Below, piece by piece: positions 1,688-12,568 of a stretch of DNA of 64,000 nucleotides. Position numbers and translations under genes: made by a program. Under the pieces are notes generated by a model. The model was given only the letters and a program-made list of their open reading frames with translations, was not told where the DNA came from and did not search any database. How positions within the stretch are numbered: position 1 is the stretch's first letter; each line of letters begins with the position of its first letter. The stretch comes from Devosia soli (GTDB taxonomy: Bacteria > Pseudomonadota > Alphaproteobacteria > Rhizobiales > Devosiaceae). The stretch covers positions 434,001 to 498,000 of the forward strand of contig NZ_LAJG01000005.1 of NCBI RefSeq assembly GCF_000970455.1, read 5' to 3'.

Positions 1688-1756
1688 CATCGAGTTTTGG
1701 GGCGGGCTTGGGCTCGCCTCAGGCTTATCTGGACGCCAATGCGGAGCACCCCGACC

Positions 1757-3298
1757 ATGACCGACGCCCCAGTGCTCCTTTCGCTCCAGAACATCACCAA
1801 GCGGTTTGGCGCCTTGACGGCGAATGATGGGATTTCGCTCGATCTGCATCGCGGAGAAATCCTCGCGCTGCTGGGGGAGAATGGGGCGGGCAAGACAACG
1901 CTGATGAATATCCTTTTCGGGCACTATGTGCAGGACGAGGGGGATGTGCGGGTTTTGGGCGATGGTGGGCTGACCGCCCTGCCCCCCGGTTCGCCCGGCG
2001 CGGCGCTGAAGGCCGGGATAGGCATGGTGCATCAGCATTTTACGCTGGCGGAGAACCTTTCGGGGCTCGCCAATATTCGGCTCGGGACCGAGCCGCTTTT
2101 GTCGTTCGGGCGCGAGGGTGCGGCGCGGGCAAAAGTGCAGAAAATCATTGCTGAGAGTGGGCTGGACGTCGATCTCGATCGGCGCGTGGCCGATCTGACG
2201 GTGGGCGAAAAGCAGCGGATCGAGATTTTGAAGGCGCTTTATCGCGATGCGAAAGTGCTCATTCTCGATGAACCGACGGCCGTGTTGACACCGCAGGAGG
2301 CCGATGGGCTGTTTGTGGTCTTGCGGCGGCTGGCGGCCAATGGGCTCGGGGTGATTTTCATTTCGCATAAGCTCGGCGAGGTCCTGGCCGTGTCGCATCG
2401 CATTCTGGTGCTGCGCGGCGGCAAGAAGGCGGGCGAGCTGGTGACGGCGGATGCCGATCGGCGGGCGATTGCCGATTTGATGGTGGGCAAGGCTGTGGCC
2501 GCGGTGGTGCGGACGCCGGCGAGCCCGGGCGACGTGTTGTTGGCGCTGGAAAATGTGTCGCTGCATGGGGCGAGTGGCCGATCGCTGAGCGGGGTCGATC
2601 TCAAATTGCGCGCGGGCGAGGTCGTTGGACTCGCGGGCGTTTCGGGCAATGGACAATCGGGGATTGCAGGGCTGATTTCGGGGCTGGCGGTGCCGACGAG
2701 CGGGACCATGCGTCTCTATGGTGAGACGGTGACGCGGGCCGATCCGCGGGCGCTGGTGGCCAATGGTGTGGCGCGCATGCCGGAGGATCGCCAGCATGAT
2801 GGCGTGGTGGGCACGATGAGCGTAGCCGACAATATCGCCATCGAAGAAGTGCGCAGCGCTGCCTTTTCCAAAATGGGTTTTCTCGATCGCAAGGCGATGC
2901 GCGAGCGGGCGACGGCGGCGATCGCGGGCTATGATGTGCGCTGCCAAGGGCCGGACGCAGAGGCACGGCTGCTGTCGGGCGGCAATGTGCAAAAGCTAAT
3001 CCTGGCACGCGTGCTTGAGCGCGGACCGCGGGTGATCCTTGCCAATCAGCCGACGCGCGGGCTCGATGTCGGCGCGCAGGCAGAAGTGCATCGGCGCATT
3101 CTCGCGGCGCGGGATCGTGGCGCGGCGGTGCTGGTGATTTCGGAAGATCTGGACGAGCTTTTCGCGCTCGCCGACCGGTTTGTCGTGGTCCATGCGGGCG
3201 AGTTGCATGATGCGGGGCCGAGCGAAGGGCTCGATCGCGGCACGATCGGTTTGATGATGGCGGGGCAGAGCCACGCGCGGGCGGAGATGGCGTCATGA
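1757..3298 (+). CDS. ABC transporter ATP-binding protein, duplicated domain, nucleoside/sugar type
   Basis: A 513-residue protein with two fused ABC ATPase domains, as in the NupA/YufO/RbsA class that powers BMP-type importers. Domain 1 has Walker A GENGAGKTT, signature LTVGEKQR and Walker B VLILDEP. Domain 2 has the degenerate P-loop typical of the family (GVSGNGQS), signature LSGGNVQK and a Walker B-like VILANQP with no catalytic glutamate. Only the first site is therefore expected to be fully hydrolytic. ATG 1757 was chosen because it starts the conserved sequence and has GGAG upstream; ATG 1739 is possible. The stop overlaps the start of the next permease by 4 bases. Confidence 0.92.
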   Translation: MTDAPVLLSLQNITKRFGALTANDGISLDLHRGEILALLGENGAGKTTLMNILFGHYVQDEGDVRVLGDGGLTALPPGSPGAALKAGIGMVHQHFTLAENLSGLANIRLGTEPLLSFGREGAARAKVQKIIAESGLDVDLDRRVADLTVGEKQRIEILKALYRDAKVLILDEPTAVLTPQEADGLFVVLRRLAANGLGVIFISHKLGEVLAVSHRILVLRGGKKAGELVTADADRRAIADLMVGKAVAAVVRTPASPGDVLLALENVSLHGASGRSLSGVDLKLRAGEVVGLAGVSGNGQSGIAGLISGLAVPTSGTMRLYGETVTRADPRALVANGVARMPEDRQHDGVVGTMSVADNIAIEEVRSAAFSKMGFLDRKAMRERATAAIAGYDVRCQGPDAEARLLSGGNVQKLILARVLERGPRVILANQPTRGLDVGAQAEVHRRILAARDRGAAVLVISEDLDELFALADRFVVVHAGELHDAGPSEGLDRGTIGLMMAGQSHARAEMAS

Positions 3299-4368
3299 CT
3301 ATTCGGCTTGAACCGCGCGAGGATGCTGGGCTGGGTCTGAAAATCGGGGTGTCGCTGGCGGCGGGCCTCGTGGCACTGCTGCTGGTCGCCATTCCGGTGC
3401 TGTTTGCCGGCGGGTCGCCGCTGACGGCCTATGGTCTGATGATCCAGGGGGCCTTCGGCTCGATGTTCGCGTTCAGCGAGACGCTGAACAGGGCGACGCC
3501 GCTGATTTTGACGGGCCTTGCTTGTGCCGTCGCGTTTCGCGCCAAACTTTGGAATATCGGGGCCGAGGGGCAGCTTTATATTGGGGCGCTCGCGGCGGTC
3601 TGCATTGGCAGTGGGCTCCTGCAATTGCCCCCTGCCCTGATGATCCCGACAGTAATGATCGCCGGATTTTTGGCCGGCGGGCTGATGATGGTCATTCCGA
3701 CCGTGATCAAGCAGCGGTTCGGGGCCGATGAAGTGGTCATCACGCTGCTGCTCAACTTCGTTGTCATTCTCTTCATTCAGATGCTCGTTGAGGGGCCGCT
3801 CAAGGACCCGCTCTCGATGGGCTGGCCGCAATCGGTGCCACTGCTTGCCGAGGCAAAACTGCCGAAACTTTTACCGCGGCTGCGGATGCATTGGGGGCTG
3901 ATCGTTGGGCTCGTGGCGGCGCTGGTGCTTTGGCTGATGGTGCGCAAGACCGTGCTTGGCTTTGAAATCCGCGCGGTCGGCGAGAACAAGGCGGCGGCGC
4001 GGTTTGCCGGAATTCCTGTGGATGCAACCATGCTGAAGGTGGCGCTGATATCGGGTGGGCTCGCTGGGCTGGCGGGCGTCGGTGAAGTGGCCGGGGTGAA
4101 GGGCTATCTTTCGTCGGACCTGTCGCCGGGATTTGGCTATTCGGGGATTGTCGTTGCCATGCTCGCGGGGCTCTCACCCATCGGGACGGTGATTGCGGCG
4201 CTGTTTGTGGCGGCCGTTTTCGTGGGGGCGGATTCGATGAGCCGGGCGACGGGGATTTCGAGCTATATCGCCGATCTCGTCGTGGCGCTGTCGCTGCTCT
4301 GCGTGCTGGTTGGCAGTTTTTTCCTGCGGTTCCGCGTGAAGTGGGACCGCCAGAGCGTGGTGGCCTGA
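3295..4368 (+). CDS. ABC transporter permease (nucleoside-type, first subunit)
   Basis: A 357-residue inner-membrane permease of the branched-chain/ribose/BMP permease superfamily. It has about 8-10 hydrophobic segments and the family's coupling region (TPLILTGLACAVAFRAKLWNIGAEGQ near residues 65-90, and EIRAVGENKAAARFAGI). It should form the transmembrane channel with the next gene product. The ATGA overlap with the ATPase gene indicates translational coupling. Confidence 0.9.
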   Translation: MTIRLEPREDAGLGLKIGVSLAAGLVALLLVAIPVLFAGGSPLTAYGLMIQGAFGSMFAFSETLNRATPLILTGLACAVAFRAKLWNIGAEGQLYIGALAAVCIGSGLLQLPPALMIPTVMIAGFLAGGLMMVIPTVIKQRFGADEVVITLLLNFVVILFIQMLVEGPLKDPLSMGWPQSVPLLAEAKLPKLLPRLRMHWGLIVGLVAALVLWLMVRKTVLGFEIRAVGENKAAARFAGIPVDATMLKVALISGGLAGLAGVGEVAGVKGYLSSDLSPGFGYSGIVVAMLAGLSPIGTVIAALFVAAVFVGADSMSRATGISSYIADLVVALSLLCVLVGSFFLRFRVKWDRQSVVA

Positions 4369-4369
4369 G

Positions 4370-5317
4370 ATGGACGTTTTGTTCGACATTTTGGGCTCGG
4401 CCAATTTCTGGGCAGCCGCCATCCGCATCGCGACGCCGCTGATCTTTGGCGTTTTGGGCGCGCTGATCTGCGAGCGCGCGGGCGTGCTCAACCTTGGAAT
4501 CGAAGGGATTTTCGTCGCCGGGGCCATGACGGGTTGGCTCGCGGTTTATCTCGGTGCAGGGCTGTGGGGCGGCGTGCTGATTGCGGCGTTTGCCGGAGCG
4601 CTGTTTGGGCTGCTGCATGCGTTTCTGACGGTCATCTTGGGGCTGTCGCAGCATGTGTCGGGGATCGGGATTACGCTTCTAGCGACAAGCGTCAGCTATT
4701 TCACCTATCGTACGGCCCTGCCAGATGTGAGTTCGCCGCCGCGGATTGCCGCCTTTCAGCCGGTGTCGATACCGGGGCTCTCGGACCTGCCGTTTATCGG
4801 GCCAGCGCTGTTTCAGCAGACGCCGCTGACGTTTTTGGCGCTGGTGTTTGTCGCACTGGTAGCACTTGTTCTCTATCGGACGCCGCTGGGGCTCGCCATT
4901 CGGGCAGTCGGGGACAATCCGGCTTCGGTCGAGGCGCAGGGGCTTTCTGTGGTGGGGCTGCGCGTCGGTGCGGTGGTTGTTGGCTCGGCGCTGATGGCGT
5001 TGGGTGGAGCGTTTCTCACCATGTCGGCGTTCGATGCGTTCTTCTTTGGCATGGTCAATGGGCGCGGCTGGATCTGTATCGCGCTCGTGGTGTTTGCGTC
5101 TTGGCAGCCGGGCAAGGCGCTGTTAGGCGCGCTGCTGTTTGGAGCGTTCGATGCGTTTCAGATCCGGTTGCAGGCGCAGATTGGGCAGGTGGTGCCGGGT
5201 CAGGTGTTCCTGATGATGCCGTATTTGCTCTCGATCGTGGCGCTGATCCTGGTGGCAAGACGGGCGGATTATCCGAGGGCACTGTTGCAGCCTTGGACGA
5301 AGGGACAGCGCCATTAG
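4370..5317 (+). CDS. ABC transporter permease (nucleoside-type, second subunit)
   Basis: A 315-residue membrane protein of the same superfamily as the preceding permease. It has the diagnostic N-terminal RIATPLIFGVLGALICERAG region with NLGIEG following, and a central LAIRAVGDNPASVEAQG loop that should contact the ATPase. The start codon lies one base after the preceding TGA, so the genes are coupled. Pairing of two unlike permeases with a double ATPase and a BMP binding protein matches the NupP/NupQ arrangement. Confidence 0.9.
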   Translation: MDVLFDILGSANFWAAAIRIATPLIFGVLGALICERAGVLNLGIEGIFVAGAMTGWLAVYLGAGLWGGVLIAAFAGALFGLLHAFLTVILGLSQHVSGIGITLLATSVSYFTYRTALPDVSSPPRIAAFQPVSIPGLSDLPFIGPALFQQTPLTFLALVFVALVALVLYRTPLGLAIRAVGDNPASVEAQGLSVVGLRVGAVVVGSALMALGGAFLTMSAFDAFFFGMVNGRGWICIALVVFASWQPGKALLGALLFGAFDAFQIRLQAQIGQVVPGQVFLMMPYLLSIVALILVARRADYPRALLQPWTKGQRH

Positions 5318-5344
5318 TGGCATCCATTCTGAAATTTCAGGATA

Positions 5345-5370
5345 GGCCCCGGCTTTCGCCGGGGTGACAA
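5345..5370. repeat. Extragenic palindrome, GGTGAC-type REP
   Basis: Stem CCCCGGC, loop TTTC, stem GCCGGGG, followed by TGACAA. This is the common alphaproteobacterial REP-like unit. It sits between the second permease and the deaminase gene and may stabilise or shorten the upstream mRNA. Confidence 0.6.
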
Positions 5371-5420
5371 TCGGATTTTGTTTTAGCATCACAGCTAGTA
5401 CGCGACTTTAAGGACCAAAA

Positions 5421-6716
5421 ATGTTCGAGCTGAAAATCACCAATGCGACGCTGACGGATGGGCGGAAGGGTGTCGATATCGGCGTCCGTGACGGCAAGAT
5501 CGCAGCGATCGAAGCCAATCTTGGGGGCGAGGGCGGCGAGGTGATCGATGCGGATGGGCAATTGGTTTCGCCGCCCTTTGTCGACTGCCATTTTCATATG
5601 GATGCGACGCTGTCGCTGGGGCAGCCGCGGTTCAATGAAAGCGGGCGGCTGCTTGAGGGCATTCAGATCTGGGGAGAGCTAAAGCCGCTTCTTACTCATG
5701 AAGCCGTGGTCGACAGGGCTCTGGACTATTGCGACCTCGCGGTGGCGCAGGGGCTGCTGGCGATCCGGACGCATGTCGATATTTGCGATGATCGGTTGCT
5801 GGGCGTCGAGGCGCTGCTCGAGGTCAAGAAGCGCGTCGCGCCCTATATCGACCTGCAGCTCGTGGCCTTTCCGCAGGATGGGTATTATCGCTATCCGGGC
5901 GCGATCGAGCTGCTGGAGCGGGCGCTCGACATGGGCGTCGATGTCGTTGGCGGCATTCCGCATTTCGAGCGGACCATGGCGGATGGCGCGGCGAGCGTGA
6001 AGGCGCTGTGCGAGATTGCCGAGAAGCGCGGGCTCCTGGTCGACTTGCACTGCGATGAGACGGACGATCCGCTGAGCCGGCATATCGAGACGCTGACCTA
6101 TGAGGCGCAGCGGCTGGGTCTACAGGGCCGGGTCAACGGCTCGCACCTGACCTCGATGCATTCGATGGACAATTATTATGTCTCAAAGCTCCTGCCGCTG
6201 ATGGCGGAGGCAGACGTTTCGGCGACGGCGAACCCCAACATCAATATCGGCATTCAGGGGCGGCACGACACCTACCCCAAGCGGCGCGGGATGACGCGGA
6301 TTCCGGAGATGCTGACCTATGGGATCACTTGCGCCTTTGGGCAGGATTGCATGATGGACCCCTGGTATTCGCTCGGGCAGGCGGACATGCTCGATGTCGC
6401 CTCGATGGGGCTGCATGTGGCGCAGATGACGAGCCGCGATGCGATGCGGCAGTGCTTCGAGGCGGTGACATCAGGGCCGGCCAAGGTGATGCATCTTGAA
6501 GGCTATGGCATCGAGGTCGGCAAAAAGGCGGATATGGTGCTGCTGCAGGCGACGGATACGATCGAGGCCATTCGGCTGCGGGCGACGCGGATTGCGGTGA
6601 TCAAGGGCGGGCGGGTGATCGCGCGGACGGCGCCGCGGCAGACGGCATTGGCCCTTACGGACCGGCCGACGCGGCTCGATCCGGCGAGGGTCGGCCCCAG
6701 CGCCAATCAGGGTTAA
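5421..6716 (+). CDS. CodA-like cytosine deaminase / amidohydrolase with an altered active-site residue
   Basis: A 431-residue protein aligning along its length with E. coli cytosine deaminase (427 aa), with a constant 4-residue offset. Metal and catalytic residues are visible: H57/H59 in HFHMD, H210 and E213 in HCDETDD, H242, and D309. Q152, matching substrate-binding Q156, and W315 are also kept. At the E. coli D314 position this protein has C310, and H312 is Q308. The enzyme should hydrolytically deaminate an amino-nucleobase in the cytosol, but the substrate may differ from cytosine. An AAGGA site precedes ATG 5421. It closes the transporter operon. Confidence 0.82.
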   Translation: MFELKITNATLTDGRKGVDIGVRDGKIAAIEANLGGEGGEVIDADGQLVSPPFVDCHFHMDATLSLGQPRFNESGRLLEGIQIWGELKPLLTHEAVVDRALDYCDLAVAQGLLAIRTHVDICDDRLLGVEALLEVKKRVAPYIDLQLVAFPQDGYYRYPGAIELLERALDMGVDVVGGIPHFERTMADGAASVKALCEIAEKRGLLVDLHCDETDDPLSRHIETLTYEAQRLGLQGRVNGSHLTSMHSMDNYYVSKLLPLMAEADVSATANPNINIGIQGRHDTYPKRRGMTRIPEMLTYGITCAFGQDCMMDPWYSLGQADMLDVASMGLHVAQMTSRDAMRQCFEAVTSGPAKVMHLEGYGIEVGKKADMVLLQATDTIEAIRLRATRIAVIKGGRVIARTAPRQTALALTDRPTRLDPARVGPSANQG

Positions 6717-6724
6717 CCCACTGT

Positions 6725-7534
6725 TCAGGCGGGGTTCTTGGGCGGCGTGCCTCGAAGGTGTTCGAGAAGGTAAGCGTGGGTCGCAGGATTGGCGACGATG
6801 AGGCAACCGGTGCGTTCGAACACGTCCGGACCCCTGCCCCACCAGTCGGTAACGACGCCGCCCGCTTCTTCGACAAGGAGAATGCCGGCGGCGGTGTCGA
6901 CGAAGCCGGTTTCCTCGAAATAGCCGGTGAGGCGACCGCAAGCGACCCAGGCGCAGGAATTGGCGGCGCTTCCGACGATGCGGACGGCGCCGATGGGTGC
7001 CCGGATGGCGTCGAGGCGGGCGTAAGCTCCTGGATGCAATGACAGATTAGGCGTCGGCAGGCCTGTGCCGACGCACATCATGGCGATGTCGGTAGAGCGG
7101 CTGACATGGAGACGCTCACCGTTAAGGAAGGCGCCGTGGCCTTTGACGGCCGTGAACATCTCATCGGCGACCGGATCGTAGACCAGCCCGCACATGGTTT
7201 CATTGCCCCGGCGAAGGGCGATGGTGATGGTATAATGCTGGCCATTCAAGAAGTTAGTGGTTCCATCGATGGGGTCGACAAGCCAGCGATGGGTCTGGTC
7301 GTCGCGCTCGGCGGGGGCGAATTCTTCGCCGGTCAGACCCCAGGGATAGCGCGACAAGAGGCGGTCGCGGATCAGGGTTTCGGATTCGCGGTCGGCGTCG
7401 GAGACAAAGTCGCCAGGGCCTTTGACGCCGATTTCCAGATCGCGGAAACGCTTGAAGTGCTTGAGGGTGAGCGCGCCGGCTTCGCGGGTTGTAGCGGCCA
7501 TGTCTTCGAGGATGGCGTGATAATCGTAAGTCAT
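6725..7534 (-). CDS. Inositol monophosphatase family protein
   Basis: A 269-residue Mg-dependent phosphatase of the IMPase/CysQ/FBPase-like superfamily. Motifs: GEEF (metal-binding glutamate), DPIDGTTNF, and VDTAAG followed by EEAGG. The usual tryptophan before the last aspartate is valine here. Family members remove phosphate from inositol phosphate, histidinol phosphate, PAP or similar small molecules, so the substrate is open. The start overlaps the stop of the phosphodiesterase gene by 4 bases, and the gene ends an ABC-transporter operon. This suggests it dephosphorylates the product of the upstream phosphodiesterase. Confidence 0.88.
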   Translation of the reverse strand: MTYDYHAILEDMAATTREAGALTLKHFKRFRDLEIGVKGPGDFVSDADRESETLIRDRLLSRYPWGLTGEEFAPAERDDQTHRWLVDPIDGTTNFLNGQHYTITIALRRGNETMCGLVYDPVADEMFTAVKGHGAFLNGERLHVSRSTDIAMMCVGTGLPTPNLSLHPGAYARLDAIRAPIGAVRIVGSAANSCAWVACGRLTGYFEETGFVDTAAGILLVEEAGGVVTDWWGRGPDVFERTGCLIVANPATHAYLLEHLRGTPPKNPA

Positions 7535-8367
7535 TGTTTCAAAGCCGCTTTCAGGCGTTCCGGATCGTCTGTGGTGATCTGGTCGACCTTAAGATCGAGC
7601 AGGCGGTGAATGGACGGTATCGTGGTGTCGTCGACCGTTCGAATGGTCCAGGCGTCGATGCGTTTGCCGGCGGCGTGGATGGGGGCGACGATGTCGAAGC
7701 CGGCCTTGTCCGCAGCGAGGACGATGTCGTAGGCGAGGTAGATCATTTCCGCCTTCGGCGCAGTGGCGAGGGCTTCGGAAACGAAGGTTTGGTAGTCGCC
7801 GGTCGCTTGCAACCTGGCGAGGGATTCGCCGTAACAGGGGTCATAACCGCTGCGCAGTTTCGGAGCCGAATCCGTTAGCATTCCGATAGCATCGAAGTCG
7901 CCCCCGGAGAGAATAAGGTAATCGGCGACGGGCGCGACACTCGCGCCGAAATTGGCGACGACCGCGGGCGTGAGGGCCGCGTGGCTTTCCTTGAAGTCGA
8001 GTTGAAGGAGCGCGTTGGGATGCGGCGTCTCTTTGGCGAGCAGCGCGCAGAGGTCTTCGAGCAGCATGACCTTATCGGTGATCGGCTGGCCGTCGTTGCC
8101 GCGCAAGTTCAATTCACGAAGCACCGAGGCCGGTGTTTCGCGCACGAGGCCGGTGCCGGTCGTTTCGGCGTCGAGCTCGAAGTTGTGAAGGATAGCGCAG
8201 CCGTGGTCGGCGTGGATAACCAGGTCTACCTCGACGCTAGCGCCGAGGCGCATGGCTTCAAGAATGCGGCTGCCTGTGAACACAGGATCGGACGCCTTGC
8301 GGCGGCCGCGATGCCATTTGAGCCAGGTACGATGGCCGTCCCGCTCGATATAGAGAGGATCGCTCAT
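7531..8367 (-). CDS. Glycerophosphodiester phosphodiesterase family protein
   Basis: A 278-residue TIM-barrel phosphodiesterase. Visible motifs: HRG near residue 19, EVD near 46, and the second catalytic His in LHNFELDAETTG, followed by the C-terminal WTI/ITTDDPE region. There is no signal peptide, so it is cytosolic, like UgpQ. It should cut a glycerophosphodiester to glycerol-3-phosphate plus an alcohol. The region after HRG is divergent (no PENT motif), so the leaving group may be unusual. It overlaps the ATPase gene upstream and the phosphatase gene downstream by 4 bases each. Confidence 0.85.
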   Translation of the reverse strand: MSDPLYIERDGHRTWLKWHRGRRKASDPVFTGSRILEAMRLGASVEVDLVIHADHGCAILHNFELDAETTGTGLVRETPASVLRELNLRGNDGQPITDKVMLLEDLCALLAKETPHPNALLQLDFKESHAALTPAVVANFGASVAPVADYLILSGGDFDAIGMLTDSAPKLRSGYDPCYGESLARLQATGDYQTFVSEALATAPKAEMIYLAYDIVLAADKAGFDIVAPIHAAGKRIDAWTIRTVDDTTIPSIHRLLDLKVDQITTDDPERLKAALKQ

Positions 8368-9404
8368 GCAGCGCTCCGGAAGACCTGGATGTCGTTGCGA
8401 TAGGCGGCGACGGCGCGGGGCATGAGATTGACACCCTGACCGGGCTGGAACTGGCTGGGCTGATTGACCATGGCTTTTAGGCGCTTGCCATCGGGCAGGT
8501 CGAAATCGACAAGGCCATGGGTGCCGTAATCAGTGACGCGATGGACTTTGCCAGCGCCGGGCTCGGCCGGGACGATATCGAGCGCTTCGGGGCGAACGGC
8601 GAGGGTGGCCGGACCGTCGCCGATAGCGAGGGGATGGGAGAAACCGGCGCGGGTGAACTGGCCGTTGCTGACCGTGCCTTCGATCAGGTTCATCGTGCCG
8701 ATGAAGCCGGCGACGAATGGCGTCTGCGGATTGCGATAGACGACATCGGGGCGATCGATCTGCTCGGTGCGCCCATCGCGCATGACGACGATGCGATCGG
8801 CCATGGAAAGGGCTTCGTCCTGGCCGTGGGTGACAAAGAGCGTCGTGATGCCGACGCGCTGCTGGATGTCGCGGACTTCTTCGCGCAGCCGTTCGCGCAG
8901 GTGCTGGTCGAGACTGGCGAAAGGTTCGTCGAGAAGCAGGATTTTGGGTTCGAGCACGAGCGAGCGGGCGAGGGCAACGCGCTGCTGCTGGCCGCCTGAA
9001 AGCTGGGTGACGCGGCGCGAGCCATAGCCGCCGAGACCGACGAGTTCGAGCACGGCTTCGACGCGACGCTTGATCTCGTCTGCCGGCAGGCGACGGAGCT
9101 TTAGGCCGAAGGCGAGGTTTTTGGCGACATCCATATGGGTCCAAAGCGCGTGGCTCTGGAATACCATGCCGGTCGGGCGCTTTTCCGGCGGGGTGCGGGT
9201 GATATCTTCGCCGTCGATGGCGATGAGGCCTGAAGTCGGGGTTTCGAAGCCGCCGACCATGCGGAGGAGCGTCGACTTGCCAGAGCCCGATGGGCCAAGG
9301 AGGCAGACGAGTTCGCCGTCAGCGACTTCGAGGGAGAAGGAGTCGACAGCCTTGGTGCCGCCGGGGAAAAGCTTTGTGACGTCTTTTATGGTGAGGACGG
9401 ACAT
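8364..9404 (-). CDS. ABC transporter ATP-binding protein (UgpC/PotA/FbpC-like)
   Basis: A 346-residue importer ATPase. Walker A GPSGSGKST, Q-loop FQSHALWTH, signature LSGGQQQR, Walker B LLLDEP, and a switch His in FVTHGQDEA are all present. A C-terminal TOBE-type regulatory domain (about residues 235-346) is typical of the CUT1/MOI classes. A GGGAGT site precedes ATG 9404. It serves the two permeases encoded upstream, from which it is separated by about 300 bp of repeats, and its stop overlaps the phosphodiesterase gene. Confidence 0.92.
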   Translation of the reverse strand: MSVLTIKDVTKLFPGGTKAVDSFSLEVADGELVCLLGPSGSGKSTLLRMVGGFETPTSGLIAIDGEDITRTPPEKRPTGMVFQSHALWTHMDVAKNLAFGLKLRRLPADEIKRRVEAVLELVGLGGYGSRRVTQLSGGQQQRVALARSLVLEPKILLLDEPFASLDQHLRERLREEVRDIQQRVGITTLFVTHGQDEALSMADRIVVMRDGRTEQIDRPDVVYRNPQTPFVAGFIGTMNLIEGTVSNGQFTRAGFSHPLAIGDGPATLAVRPEALDIVPAEPGAGKVHRVTDYGTHGLVDFDLPDGKRLKAMVNQPSQFQPGQGVNLMPRAVAAYRNDIQVFRSAA

Positions 9405-9500
9405 TTTTTATTACTCCCGGTCCAGTTGGATCGGTTGGGAATTTACGGAGATCGCCGTTGCTGGGCCTGGTCCGGCAATCCACGGCAGGCGCGGCGGCAT

Positions 9501-9533
9501 GGACCACCGGGACAAGCCCGGTGGTGACGATAG
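9501..9533. repeat. Extragenic palindrome, GGTGAC-type REP
   Basis: CCACCGGG-ACAA-CCCGGTGG followed by TGACGATAG. It lies in the 308-bp gap (9405-9712) between permease and ATPase genes of one operon. That gap otherwise holds two copies of the other repeat family. Confidence 0.65.
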
Positions 9534-9583
9534 AGACGATGGGGAGGTGGCGCAGGAGTGAGCGGCCGGTGCTGGCCGCAAGG

Positions 9584-9617
9584 CCCCCCACCTAGCCTCC
9601 CCCTGGGAGGGGGACGG
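9584..9617. repeat. Extragenic palindrome, CCTCCCCC-type (copy 1 of an inverted pair)
   Basis: CCCCCCACCTAGCCTCCCCC followed by TGGGAGGGGGACGG. It is the same unit as at 1651 and is inverted relative to the copy at 9659. The pair could fold into a large stem inside the polycistronic mRNA. Confidence 0.6.
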
Positions 9618-9658
9618 ACGCATCGGGGATGCCGAACCGTTAATCGGCCACTGATAGA

Positions 9659-9692
9659 CCCCTCCGCCTATCAGGGGGAGGTTGGGTGGGGG
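9659..9692. repeat. Extragenic palindrome, CCTCCCCC-type (copy 2, inverted)
   Basis: CCCCTCCGCCTATCAGGGGG followed by AGGTTGGGTGGGGGT. Its reverse complement matches the copy at 9584. It lies just after the end of the second permease gene. Confidence 0.6.
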
Positions 9693-9712
9693 TGCTGCAA
9701 GGTCGAAAACCA

Positions 9713-10540
9713 TCAAGCCCCGAACCCCTTGGCAAACGAGCCGGAATTGACCACTCGGCGGGCGAACAGCAGGGCAATGAAGCTTGGGACCCAGAGGAGG
9801 ACCGAGAGCACGGCGCCGTATTGGATGACGGGCTGGTTGTTGATGAAGGAGATCATCAGGACCGGCAGGGTGCGGACTTGCGGGGCGCCGATGAGCCAGG
9901 CGCCTTCGGTTTCGTAGAAAGTGCCGACAAAGCTCAGGAGAATGGCAGCGGCGATGGTCGGGCCGGCCTGAGGCAGGGTGATCGACCAGAAGACACGCAA
10001 AGGCGAGGCGCCGACGTCTCGTGCGGCTTCCTCCATGCGCCGATCAACCGATTGGAAAGCGGCGACGGGGATCCAGATCATGAACAGCAGCGTGCCGACC
10101 AGCTGGATGAGGACGACGCCCCAGAACGTGCCGATGAGATTGAGCTGCAGGAAGATACCTGCGATCGCGACCAGAAGGCCGAACTTTGGAAAGGCGTGCC
10201 CGGCAAGGAATGAAAAGAACAATATATCGCGGCCGGGGAAGTCGAGGCGGGCAAAGGCGTAGGCCGCCGGAAGGCAGATGACGGCGGAAAGCACCGTCAC
10301 CGTGGTGGCGAGCGTCAGGCTCATGGTGATCGAGGACCAGACATCGGCGCGGGCGAGGGTCTGGTACCAGAATTTCAGGCCAAATTCCTGCGGGATGACC
10401 GAGGGAAAGCGCCAGACATTGGTGAAGGCCCAGGTGCCGACGACGAGAAGCGGGGCGACGATGACGAGGGTCAGGACGACGGCAAAGAAGATGCCGGTCC
10501 AATCGATCGGCTCTCTGATTTTTACGGCTGTAGTGCTCAT
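9713..10540 (-). CDS. ABC transporter permease (second subunit)
   Basis: A 275-residue inner-membrane permease with about six transmembrane segments. The cytoplasmic EAA loop reads EEAARDVGASPLRVFWSITLPQAGP. It belongs to the MalG/PotC/FbpB-like superfamily. An upstream extension to 10576 is open, but ATG 10540 lies one base after the stop of the preceding permease, giving a coupled arrangement. It forms the importer channel with its neighbour. Confidence 0.9.
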   Translation of the reverse strand: MSTTAVKIREPIDWTGIFFAVVLTLVIVAPLLVVGTWAFTNVWRFPSVIPQEFGLKFWYQTLARADVWSSITMSLTLATTVTVLSAVICLPAAYAFARLDFPGRDILFFSFLAGHAFPKFGLLVAIAGIFLQLNLIGTFWGVVLIQLVGTLLFMIWIPVAAFQSVDRRMEEAARDVGASPLRVFWSITLPQAGPTIAAAILLSFVGTFYETEGAWLIGAPQVRTLPVLMISFINNQPVIQYGAVLSVLLWVPSFIALLFARRVVNSGSFAKGFGA

Positions 10541-10541
10541 G

Positions 10542-11420
10542 TCAGGGCGTCCTGTTCTTGGCGACGGAGCGCACATAAAAGAGCCCGAAGACGATGCAGA
10601 AGCCGAAGGTGATCACCGCCTGGGTGATGGCATTGGTCGGATCGAAGAGATCGCGGAACGTGCGCTGCATGAAGGGGCCCATCATTTCCGGAGCGGCAGG
10701 ACCAAGCACATAGGGTAAGGTAAAAGCCGAGAAGATGCCGAGGACGGCAAAGGAAATGGCGACGAGGATGGAATTGGAAATGCGCGGCAGGATGATGTGC
10801 CAGAGGAGGGCGAAGCGCCCGGCGCCGACATCGCGCGCGGCTTCGATCGCCTGGTTCGACACGTTGCCGAGGCCTGAAAGAAGTATGAGGACGGTCAGCG
10901 GGATATTGTCCCACACGAGGCCGATCACCGGCCCCCACGGGGTGAGGTAGGGCGACTTGATCTTGGGGAGGCCTACGGAATTGAGCAGAAGATCGACGGT
11001 GCCATTCGGACCGAGCACGCGGATGAAAGCAAAGCTCAGGATGATCGAGGGCACGAACATCGGGAAGATGGCGAGGCCCTGGACATAGGCGGCGATCTTG
11101 GAATTGGAGAAGCGCAGGTAAAGTGCGATGGGCAGGCAAATCACGAGGAGCAGCACGGCGCAGACGCCGGTGGTCCAGAGCGTGATCGCGAGGTTCGCCC
11201 GGCTATAGGGATCGCTGACGAAGAACTCGTAGCTCGAGACCGAAAGGGTGCGCCCGCCATCGGGGGCCGGCAGCCAGAGGGTCTGGATCACCGCCGAAAT
11301 GATCGGCCAGATGATGAGCCAGAGAACGAGAAGAACGGGCACGGCCACGAGCAAGAGGCCGATCGGCCTCTTGCGTTGCGTGGGTGCGGGCGCCAGAGCG
11401 CCCGCTTCTATCGATGTCAC
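10542..11420 (-). CDS. ABC transporter permease (first subunit)
   Basis: A 292-residue permease with a cytosolic N-terminus, about six membrane segments and the EAA loop EAARDVGAGRFALLWHIILPRI. The start is GTG, overlapping the TGA of the binding-protein gene by 4 bases. Family: MalF/PotB-like subunits of periplasmic-binding-protein-dependent importers. Confidence 0.9.
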   Translation of the reverse strand: MTSIEAGALAPAPTQRKRPIGLLLVAVPVLLVLWLIIWPIISAVIQTLWLPAPDGGRTLSVSSYEFFVSDPYSRANLAITLWTTGVCAVLLLVICLPIALYLRFSNSKIAAYVQGLAIFPMFVPSIILSFAFIRVLGPNGTVDLLLNSVGLPKIKSPYLTPWGPVIGLVWDNIPLTVLILLSGLGNVSNQAIEAARDVGAGRFALLWHIILPRISNSILVAISFAVLGIFSAFTLPYVLGPAAPEMMGPFMQRTFRDLFDPTNAITQAVITFGFCIVFGLFYVRSVAKNRTP

Positions 11421-12568
11421 GAGGCAGGGTCCACGTTTGGTGCAACGGCGCGGTACCAGCCATCATTGATGGCGGTTTCCCACTTGCCGCCCGGGAAGGT
11501 CGGGATTGATTCCGGGATGATGTCGGCAAAGCGTTCGCGAAGGTCAGCTGCCACATAGTCCCAGGAAACGCCGGGGAAGCCGCCGAGTTCGGTGAGAATG
11601 GCGGACTGGATTTCCTCGGTGAGAAGGAAGTCGGCGAGCTTGAGAGCGGCGTCCTTGTTGGCGCCGTTCGAAAGCACGGCGATATAGGTGAAGCCGCCGG
11701 GCAGGCCGAGATCCTGAAGCTGGACGAGGCCTGTGGTTTCCGGAAGCACGCCCTGCTGGATGGCCGAGAGCGCCTGATCGGACCAGGCCGGGATCATGGT
11801 GACGGCGGACTGGCCGAGCAGCTGCAGCGACTGTGTATTGCCCGAAGTATAGGCGCCGCTTTCAAAAAGCGACGGGGCGAGATCGTTGAGCATGGCCCAG
11901 GCTGGGGTCAGGGCTTCTTCGGCAAATTCAGGGGTGAAGTTGTCGACGGTGAATTTCTTGGGGTCGTTGCCATTGGCTTCGAAAATGGCGCGGCGGACGA
12001 AATTGCCACCCGAACCGCCCTTGTTGGGACGATTGTAGATGAACTGGCCCGGATTGGCCTTGATCCAGGCGACGAGATCGGCCCAGGTCTTGGGCACATT
12101 GGCCGGATCGAGCTTGGTCGTGTCATAGGCAAGGAGCACCTGCGAACCGCGGTAGGGCAAGCGGGTCGGGATGTCGTTGGCGAGCGGGTTGATCTTGGAG
12201 TAGTTGGAAAGGCCTGCGGCCGAGAAATCGACGAAAAGGCCCTTGTCGATGGCGCCGGCGTTGACGCGGGTGTCGTAGCCTTCGAAGACGTCAGCCTGCG
12301 GGTCGGCGCCGCTCGCGAGGGCGGCAAGGGCGCGGTCGCCGATGGCGGCAACGCCGGGGCCATCGCCACCGTCAACAAGGTTGAGTGTGATGCCGGAATT
12401 GGCGGCTTCGAATTTTGGCTTCACCACATTGGTCCAGAAGTCGATGACGTTCTGGTCCGAGGTGAAATAGACGTCGATCACGCCTTCGGCGGCGAAGGTC
12501 ATGCGCGGCATCAGGGTGACGCCAGCCGAAATGGCGGCGGCTGAAATGAGGAAATTGCGGCGTTTCAT
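11417..12568 (-). CDS. ABC transporter extracellular solute-binding protein, Tat-type signal
   Basis: A 383-residue type II periplasmic binding protein (SBP_bac_6/YnjB/AfuA-like). The N-terminus MKRRNFLISAAAISAG has a twin-arginine motif and ends near MTFAAEG, so export of a folded protein by the Tat route is likely. A GGGAGAA site precedes ATG 12568. It is the first gene of the transport operon that also carries a phosphodiesterase and a phosphatase. The ligand cannot be read from the sequence. A glycerophosphodiester or sugar/polyol phosphate is the inference from context. Confidence 0.88.
   Translation of the reverse strand: MKRRNFLISAAAISAGVTLMPRMTFAAEGVIDVYFTSDQNVIDFWTNVVKPKFEAANSGITLNLVDGGDGPGVAAIGDRALAALASGADPQADVFEGYDTRVNAGAIDKGLFVDFSAAGLSNYSKINPLANDIPTRLPYRGSQVLLAYDTTKLDPANVPKTWADLVAWIKANPGQFIYNRPNKGGSGGNFVRRAIFEANGNDPKKFTVDNFTPEFAEEALTPAWAMLNDLAPSLFESGAYTSGNTQSLQLLGQSAVTMIPAWSDQALSAIQQGVLPETTGLVQLQDLGLPGGFTYIAVLSNGANKDAALKLADFLLTEEIQSAILTELGGFPGVSWDYVAADLRERFADIIPESIPTFPGGKWETAINDGWYRAVAPNVDPAS

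Follow-up and report, generated by a model that had tools for sequence, protein, structure and literature searches.

A CodA-type deaminase with cysteine at the specificity position, encoded beside a BMP-type ABC importer

The window (the whole stretch of 64,000 nucleotides that was analysed) carries, at positions 5421-6716 of the plus strand, a single open frame of 431 amino acids encoding a CodA-like deaminase of the NF005748/PRK07572 subfamily (amidohydrolase superfamily). The enzyme is a member of the already known CodA-type kind and its conspicuous residue, a cysteine (C310) in place of Asp314 of Escherichia coli CodA, is already explained: cysteine at this position is the rule of a clade and is tied to a known specificity residue, rather than being an oddity. 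Quite probably, the protein is a metal-dependent CodA-family deaminase of the cytosine type, in its cysteine variant, which lies in an apparent single operon beside a nucleobase/nucleoside importer and accepts 5-methylcytosine as well; its most likely role is that of a scavenging cytosine deaminase that also takes 5-methylcytosine. A modest new lead comes from the conserved association between this deaminase and a BMP-type ABC importer, to which URC-type uracil genes are added in some Betaproteobacteria. This pairing suggests a cargo for an importer that falls below every curated NCBIfam cut-off listed. Furthermore, a Cys-bearing deaminase of 5-methylcytosine or 5-fluorocytosine could be of interest for enzyme-prodrug work.

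Family, active site and fold of the deaminase

The best subfamily model for the protein is NCBIfam NF005748/PRK07572 ('cytosine deaminase'), matched over the full length with 763.1 bits against a cut-off of 438; as a control, this model scored above its cut-off in one of 14 well-known genomes and gave a below-cut-off signal in 10 others. No difference from the subfamily was found: wherever the 167-row clade of the query is conserved to at least 95%, the query agrees with it. With E. coli CodA (from NC_000913), the protein shares 44% identity over 419 aligned positions and, among PDB chains, wild-type CodA (1k6w) covers almost the entire open frame with an E of 3.8e-111, too low for a chance match.

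Residue pairs are given here in the crystal numbering of CodA, which equals gene numbering minus one. In this numbering, the constant four-residue shift from CodA claimed in the original prediction holds upon alignment with the protein of the K-12 genome, as do the residue pairs that were read from it. H210 and D309 correspond to the metal ligands H214 and D313, while E213, H242 and Q152 correspond to the catalytic residues E217, H246 and Q156; the remaining metal ligands, H61 and H63, are matched by H57 and H59. All of these residues are invariant in 164 close relatives. The adjoining codons for Q308 and D309 (6342-6347, plus strand; computed from the start of the open frame) and for C310 (6348-6350, plus strand; computed from the same start and the alignment) encode the stretch of most interest. 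Here, Q308 stands opposite H312 as had been proposed, and C310 takes the place of D314, the second Asp of the G-H-D-D motif of CodA, with no Asp in the query at this position. The placement is confirmed by the mutant PDB entries D314G, D314A and D314S, which are changed in exactly that column.

An AlphaFold2 model of the deaminase (30 aligned family members as input; pLDDT 86.3, pTM 0.89) superimposes best on CodA 1k6w, with a Z of 54.5 and an rmsd of 2.2 Å for 420 aligned residues of a 423-residue target. Next come the D314G/A/S mutant structures of CodA (Z 54.1-54.4). The Klebsiella 5-methylcytosine deaminase 4r7w_A reaches a Z of 53.2, at an rmsd of 1.9 for 402 aligned residues, and the structures of AtzC a Z of 50.4-50.7; a Foldseek search placed the same families on top. 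The top eight structural matches span 1.4 Z, and CodA and the 5-methylcytosine enzyme are not distinguished by fold. CodA and the query are therefore alike in fold, in their metal ligands and in the equivalents of Gln156, Glu217, His246 and Asp313, but differ at Asp314 (Cys310) and, when the 11 rows of the CodA clade are set against the 167 rows of the Cys clade, in 42 further columns where either side is conserved to 90% or more but with different residues.

The structural ranking also bears on the natural substrate, for which another amino-nucleobase, such as something isoguanine-like or a damaged base, had been suggested. Cytosine and 5-methylcytosine deaminases head the ranking. The isocytosine deaminase Vcz is far lower (Z 33.4), and the Sargasso Sea amidohydrolase 3hpa, which we take to be an 8-oxoguanine deaminase, reaches a Z of 35.0 as against 54.5 for CodA. 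E. coli CodA keeps its Asp and yet is itself annotated as a 'cytosine/isoguanine deaminase', so that lacking this residue does not indicate specificity for isoguanine. In addition, no purine-metabolism family was detected in the 20 selected neighbour proteins scanned, and those neighbouring genes that can be named point to pyrimidines. Although the position of D314 does change substrate choice (PMC6186785), an isoguanine or damaged-base deaminase is hence a very improbable reading. What stands of the suggestion is that the change at D314 points beyond plain cytosine, while the particular substrates proposed find no support.

Of the other solved members of this fold, AtzC (N-isopropylammelide isopropylaminohydrolase; 2qt3, 4cqb) shares about 30% identity with the query, and a sampled atzC gene encodes Asn in place of D314. 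Of the rows sampled below 36% identity, which are part of those that exist in the search results, nine of ten are devoid of the Glu217 equivalent, whereas the query keeps this Glu. An AtzC-like function was rejected in view of the Cys at the D314 position and the Glu217 equivalent.

Position 314 among the relatives

Relatives were collected from 80 genome contigs, retrieved with six peptide patterns, as well as by genome searches. The query's own locus (L001, L006) and its distant paralogue (L002, retained as L210) were excluded from the counts, and three further loci (L003-L005) gave no match. At 60% identity or more, 160 of 164 loci have Cys at the D314 position, four have Ser and none has Asp; these loci represent 160 distinct proteins (156 Cys, 4 Ser). 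The 80 loci derived from the patterns are possibly biased, since one of the six patterns included the Cys; the 84 loci from outside this set comprise 82 with Cys and two with Ser. Nine further loci of at least 60% identity all have Cys, which brings the totals to 169 Cys and 4 Ser in 173. The view of C310 as an oddity therefore fails, cysteine being the norm of a large clade. The H312 column is variable in the same 164 loci (H in 111, Q in 43, S in 8, M and N in one each), and Q308 was rejected as a marker.

Among more distant relatives, the picture is mixed. The 29 loci of 35-60% identity have Ser (15), Asp (11), Cys (2) or Asn (1) at the D314 position, while 20 added loci of 40-45% identity are divided between Asp (11) and Ser (9). 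In the latter, Asp is paired with H at the H312 column in all 11 cases and Ser is accompanied by Q or E in all nine.

A quick maximum-likelihood tree with a midpoint root was built from 85 of 205 aligned rows (all loci below 60% identity, the four rows with Ser at 60% or more, one in every four Cys rows, the query and CodA), leaving out the trait column; it has several long branches, and 29 later-added loci are not in it. The query falls in a main clade with an SH-aLRT of 100, in which 42 of the 47 rows have Cys and 5 have Ser. Next to it stands a group made up of Asp enzymes, namely CodA and its kin, and of Ser enzymes. The Cys state requires five changes on the tree, and one Cys row (L193) is placed outside the main clade. 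Cys310 thus nearly marks a clade, as had been asked of it, apart from rows that lost it to Ser and a single row that has Cys elsewhere. In this 85-row tree, the query does not share with the Klebsiella enzyme a clade apart from CodA, the Cys clade being separate. Rather, the Ser clade with L167, a close match (836 bits) to the solved Klebsiella 5-methylcytosine deaminase, groups with the Asp clade of CodA (SH-aLRT 87, inside a starred fork of 96).

As a separate observation, one genome (G196, contig C114) has two adjacent, distant CodA-like genes, of which one has Ser and the other Cys at the D314 position (L191 and L193); both fall outside the main Cys clade.

Substrate range implied by position 314

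The significance of this position has a precedent. The 2014 study of Hitchcock reportedly sought CodA homologues without this Asp; three of them, which came from Klebsiella, Rhodobacter and Corynebacterium, are reported to be active on 5-methylcytosine. Rsp0341 and NCgl0075 are presumably enzymes of that study; a literature search for these two names and for Kpn00632 retrieved only the last. Kpn00632 is the Klebsiella 5-methylcytosine deaminase, the residue Asp315 (gene numbering) is Ser in it and is critical for specificity, and CodA is essentially inactive on 5-methylcytosine while its Asp-to-Ala mutant is active (PMC6186785, citing Hitchcock 2014). The claim that the D314 position governs substrate choice is thereby borne out by a published effect, and the idea of a substrate change upon loss of D314 has already been published. 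Since Cys is the rule throughout the branch and D314 is a known discriminating residue, novelty of C310 is unsupported. The Cys variant itself is not discussed in the passages covered of PMC13054789, PMC12828455 and PMC11898903.

The query, being a CodA homologue without Asp at 314, shares the sequence hallmark of the 5-methylcytosine deaminases. The K. pneumoniae enzyme (4r7w, 4r85, 4r88) belongs to the same family and is likewise devoid of Asp at the discriminating position; it differs in having Ser instead of Cys, in its identity of about 41% to the query and in its placement, its near relative L167 lying in the Ser clade beside the CodA clade and hence nearer to CodA.

In the proposed mechanism, the BMP-type ABC importer would bring a base or nucleoside into the cell, where the His/His/His/Asp metal centre, aided by Glu and His as acid-base residues, would release the exocyclic amine as ammonia. 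Such metal-centre deamination is known for this enzyme family. The small Cys replacing Asp314 would free space at C5 of the pyrimidine; 5-methylcytosine should be accepted besides cytosine because of this room. Deamination would yield uracil from cytosine or thymine from 5-methylcytosine, and both products may then be degraded for nitrogen by Rut-type and reductive-type genes of the same genome.

The importer and its conservation beside the deaminase

Directly upstream of the deaminase and on the same (plus) strand lie the genes of an ABC importer, recognised by domain matches and by the loci of relatives. These encode a BMP/PnrA-type substrate-binding protein (PF02608; 543-1634), which is kept beside the deaminase in relatives, a two-domain ATPase of the same importer (1697-3298) and two permeases, both PF02653 (permease 1 at 3295-4368 and permease 2 at 4370-5317). 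Only 103 bp separate the stop of permease 2 from the start of the deaminase, and the genes may well be co-transcribed. None of the importer parts reaches the curated cut-off of any NCBIfam model listed, one of these models being named 'putative B6'. E. coli codA, in contrast, follows the cytosine transporter gene codB. The ten other window genes considered revealed nothing bearing on the deaminase question.

The pairing is kept in many alpha- and betaproteobacteria. All four importer genes occur in 48 of 80 related loci (upstream of the deaminase in 45, downstream in three), at least one of the ATPase and permeases in 54, and a permease 2 that starts at most 1.2 kb upstream in 47; in 21 of the 80, the stretch covered shows no importer ATPase or permease and no URC gene, although some stretches are short. 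Across 61 genomes (the window's own and 60 relatives, with the 30%-identity match of G705 counted as without deaminase), permease 2 is found in 24 of 26 genomes with the deaminase versus 2 of 35 without it (Fisher p 1.6e-12, uncorrected for shared ancestry). Within the genus set, the corresponding figures are 17 of 19 and 0 of 18, i.e. two of the 19 genomes with the deaminase lack permease 2. The gap between the two genes is at most 200 bp in 20 of the 24 genomes and about 5 kb in the other four. Among the matches listed by a literature search, no paper title was clearly on the pairing of a BMP importer with a cytosine deaminase; the pairing is not claimed to be unpublished.

On the other side of the deaminase, a convergent minus-strand cluster (6725-11420) comprises inositol-monophosphatase-like and glycerophosphodiester-phosphodiesterase-like genes as well as ABC importer genes (one ATPase, two permeases); it looks like a cluster for the uptake of a phosphodiester compound.

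A sister layout of Cys deaminase, BMP binding protein, Amidase and ABC ATPase was observed in L213 (genome G683, 3969-11515), which also holds a GntR regulator and, just upstream of the deaminase, a hydantoinase-like amidohydrolase that stays below the cut-off with 173.6 bits. The layout recurs in L099 and L107 (Amidase by Pfam) and in L075 and L089 (by sequence clustering). This amidase-bearing sister operon may serve a different substrate. It also lends some colour to the reading that the query itself acts on another compound with an N-C(NH2)=N group, such as creatinine or a compound of a hydantoin pathway, since the Cys deaminase and the BMP importer are accompanied there by an Amidase, and in L213 by a hydantoinase-like gene too; CodA-like creatinine deaminases are known as well. 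The window, however, has a different layout, with neither an amidase nor a hydantoinase among its importer and deaminase genes, and such a substrate appears quite improbable.

URC-type genes and the fate of the product

In a subset of the related loci, the deaminase is accompanied by a URC-type set, i.e. a GTP cyclohydrolase N-terminal protein, DUF1688 and a uracil phosphoribosyltransferase, which we take to represent the URC pathway of uracil degradation, acting on uracil. At least one of these genes occurs in 13 of the 80 loci and all three in 10 (L052, L064, L066, L067, L070, L078, L079, L092, L094 and L114), of which eight also have a TetR regulator with a YcdC-like C-terminal domain and seven have the BMP importer. 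Loci that combine the URC-type set, the importer and the deaminase hold an apparent gene set for pyrimidines from uptake to degradation. Twelve of the 13 presumably belong to Betaproteobacteria, L052 being labelled 'Proteobacteria' only.

The neighbours and the residue carry different messages on the main natural substrate: the URC genes favour cytosine, while the residue favours both cytosine and 5-methylcytosine. A plain cytosine deaminase, in which the Cys is merely tolerated, activity on 5-methylcytosine is not biologically meaningful and the uracil formed is fed to degradation, would suit the presumed uracil-acting URC1/URC4/UPRT-type genes near the deaminase in those 10 loci, as well as the name 'cytosine deaminase' of NF005748. 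Such a reading overlaps with the preferred one and is a real possibility, though we hold it to be somewhat short of probable: Asp is absent from all 173 loci of at least 60% identity, and its loss in CodA suffices for activity on 5-methylcytosine (PMC6186785).

At the other end stands a dedicated 5-methylcytosine scavenger, whose importer and deaminase are tuned to the methylated base of environmental DNA and give thymine; this, too, overlaps with the preferred reading. The clade-wide presence of Cys, rarely Ser, at the discriminating position would fit it, as would the deposition of a homologous Ser enzyme as '5-methylcytosine deaminase', and a methylmalonate-semialdehyde dehydrogenase beside the dihydropyrimidinase of the window's own genome would suit thymine. 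That dehydrogenase family, however, also serves the breakdown of uracil and valine, and the URC neighbours point to uracil, making the dedicated scavenger rather unlikely. A still wider picture would make the Cys branch a common means of scavenging cytosines that are methylated or otherwise substituted at C5: importer and deaminase would travel together and allow soil and marine bacteria to live on 5-methylcytosine from environmental DNA, with the amidase-bearing sister operon devoted to a different substrate. This picture is speculative and unlikely to hold.

For the preferred reading, i.e. cytosine together with 5-methylcytosine, the genome that harbours the window offers candidate routes for both products. 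DUF1688 gave no match in this genome, and uracil degradation of the DUF1688 type was therefore rejected there. Instead, three tandem RutA genes, each over the cut-off, lie on the minus strand of another region (L211, C44:532000-550000) at 8334-11891, the second and third copies being 75% and 69% identical to the first. Neighbouring genes encode, at the Pfam level, an isochorismatase, a flavin reductase and an alpha/beta-hydrolase; these RutB/D/F-like neighbours matched no NCBIfam model at 1e-40 and their names rest on the Pfam domains. A second cluster of the genome consists of a dihydropyrimidinase, a hydantoinase/carbamoylase-family amidase, an omega-aminotransferase and the above-mentioned methylmalonate-semialdehyde dehydrogenase. 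Given the RutA and dihydropyrimidinase clusters, uracil and thymine can probably be degraded via Rut-type and reductive-type genes of the same genome. RutA does not regularly accompany the deaminase, being over its cut-off in only 4 of the 61 related genomes; besides the window's own genome, these are G663, with a similar array of four copies, and G680 and G682, with three copies each. For the carbamoyl-hydrolase of the dihydropyrimidinase cluster, the best-scoring model is the one named 'allantoate amidohydrolase'.
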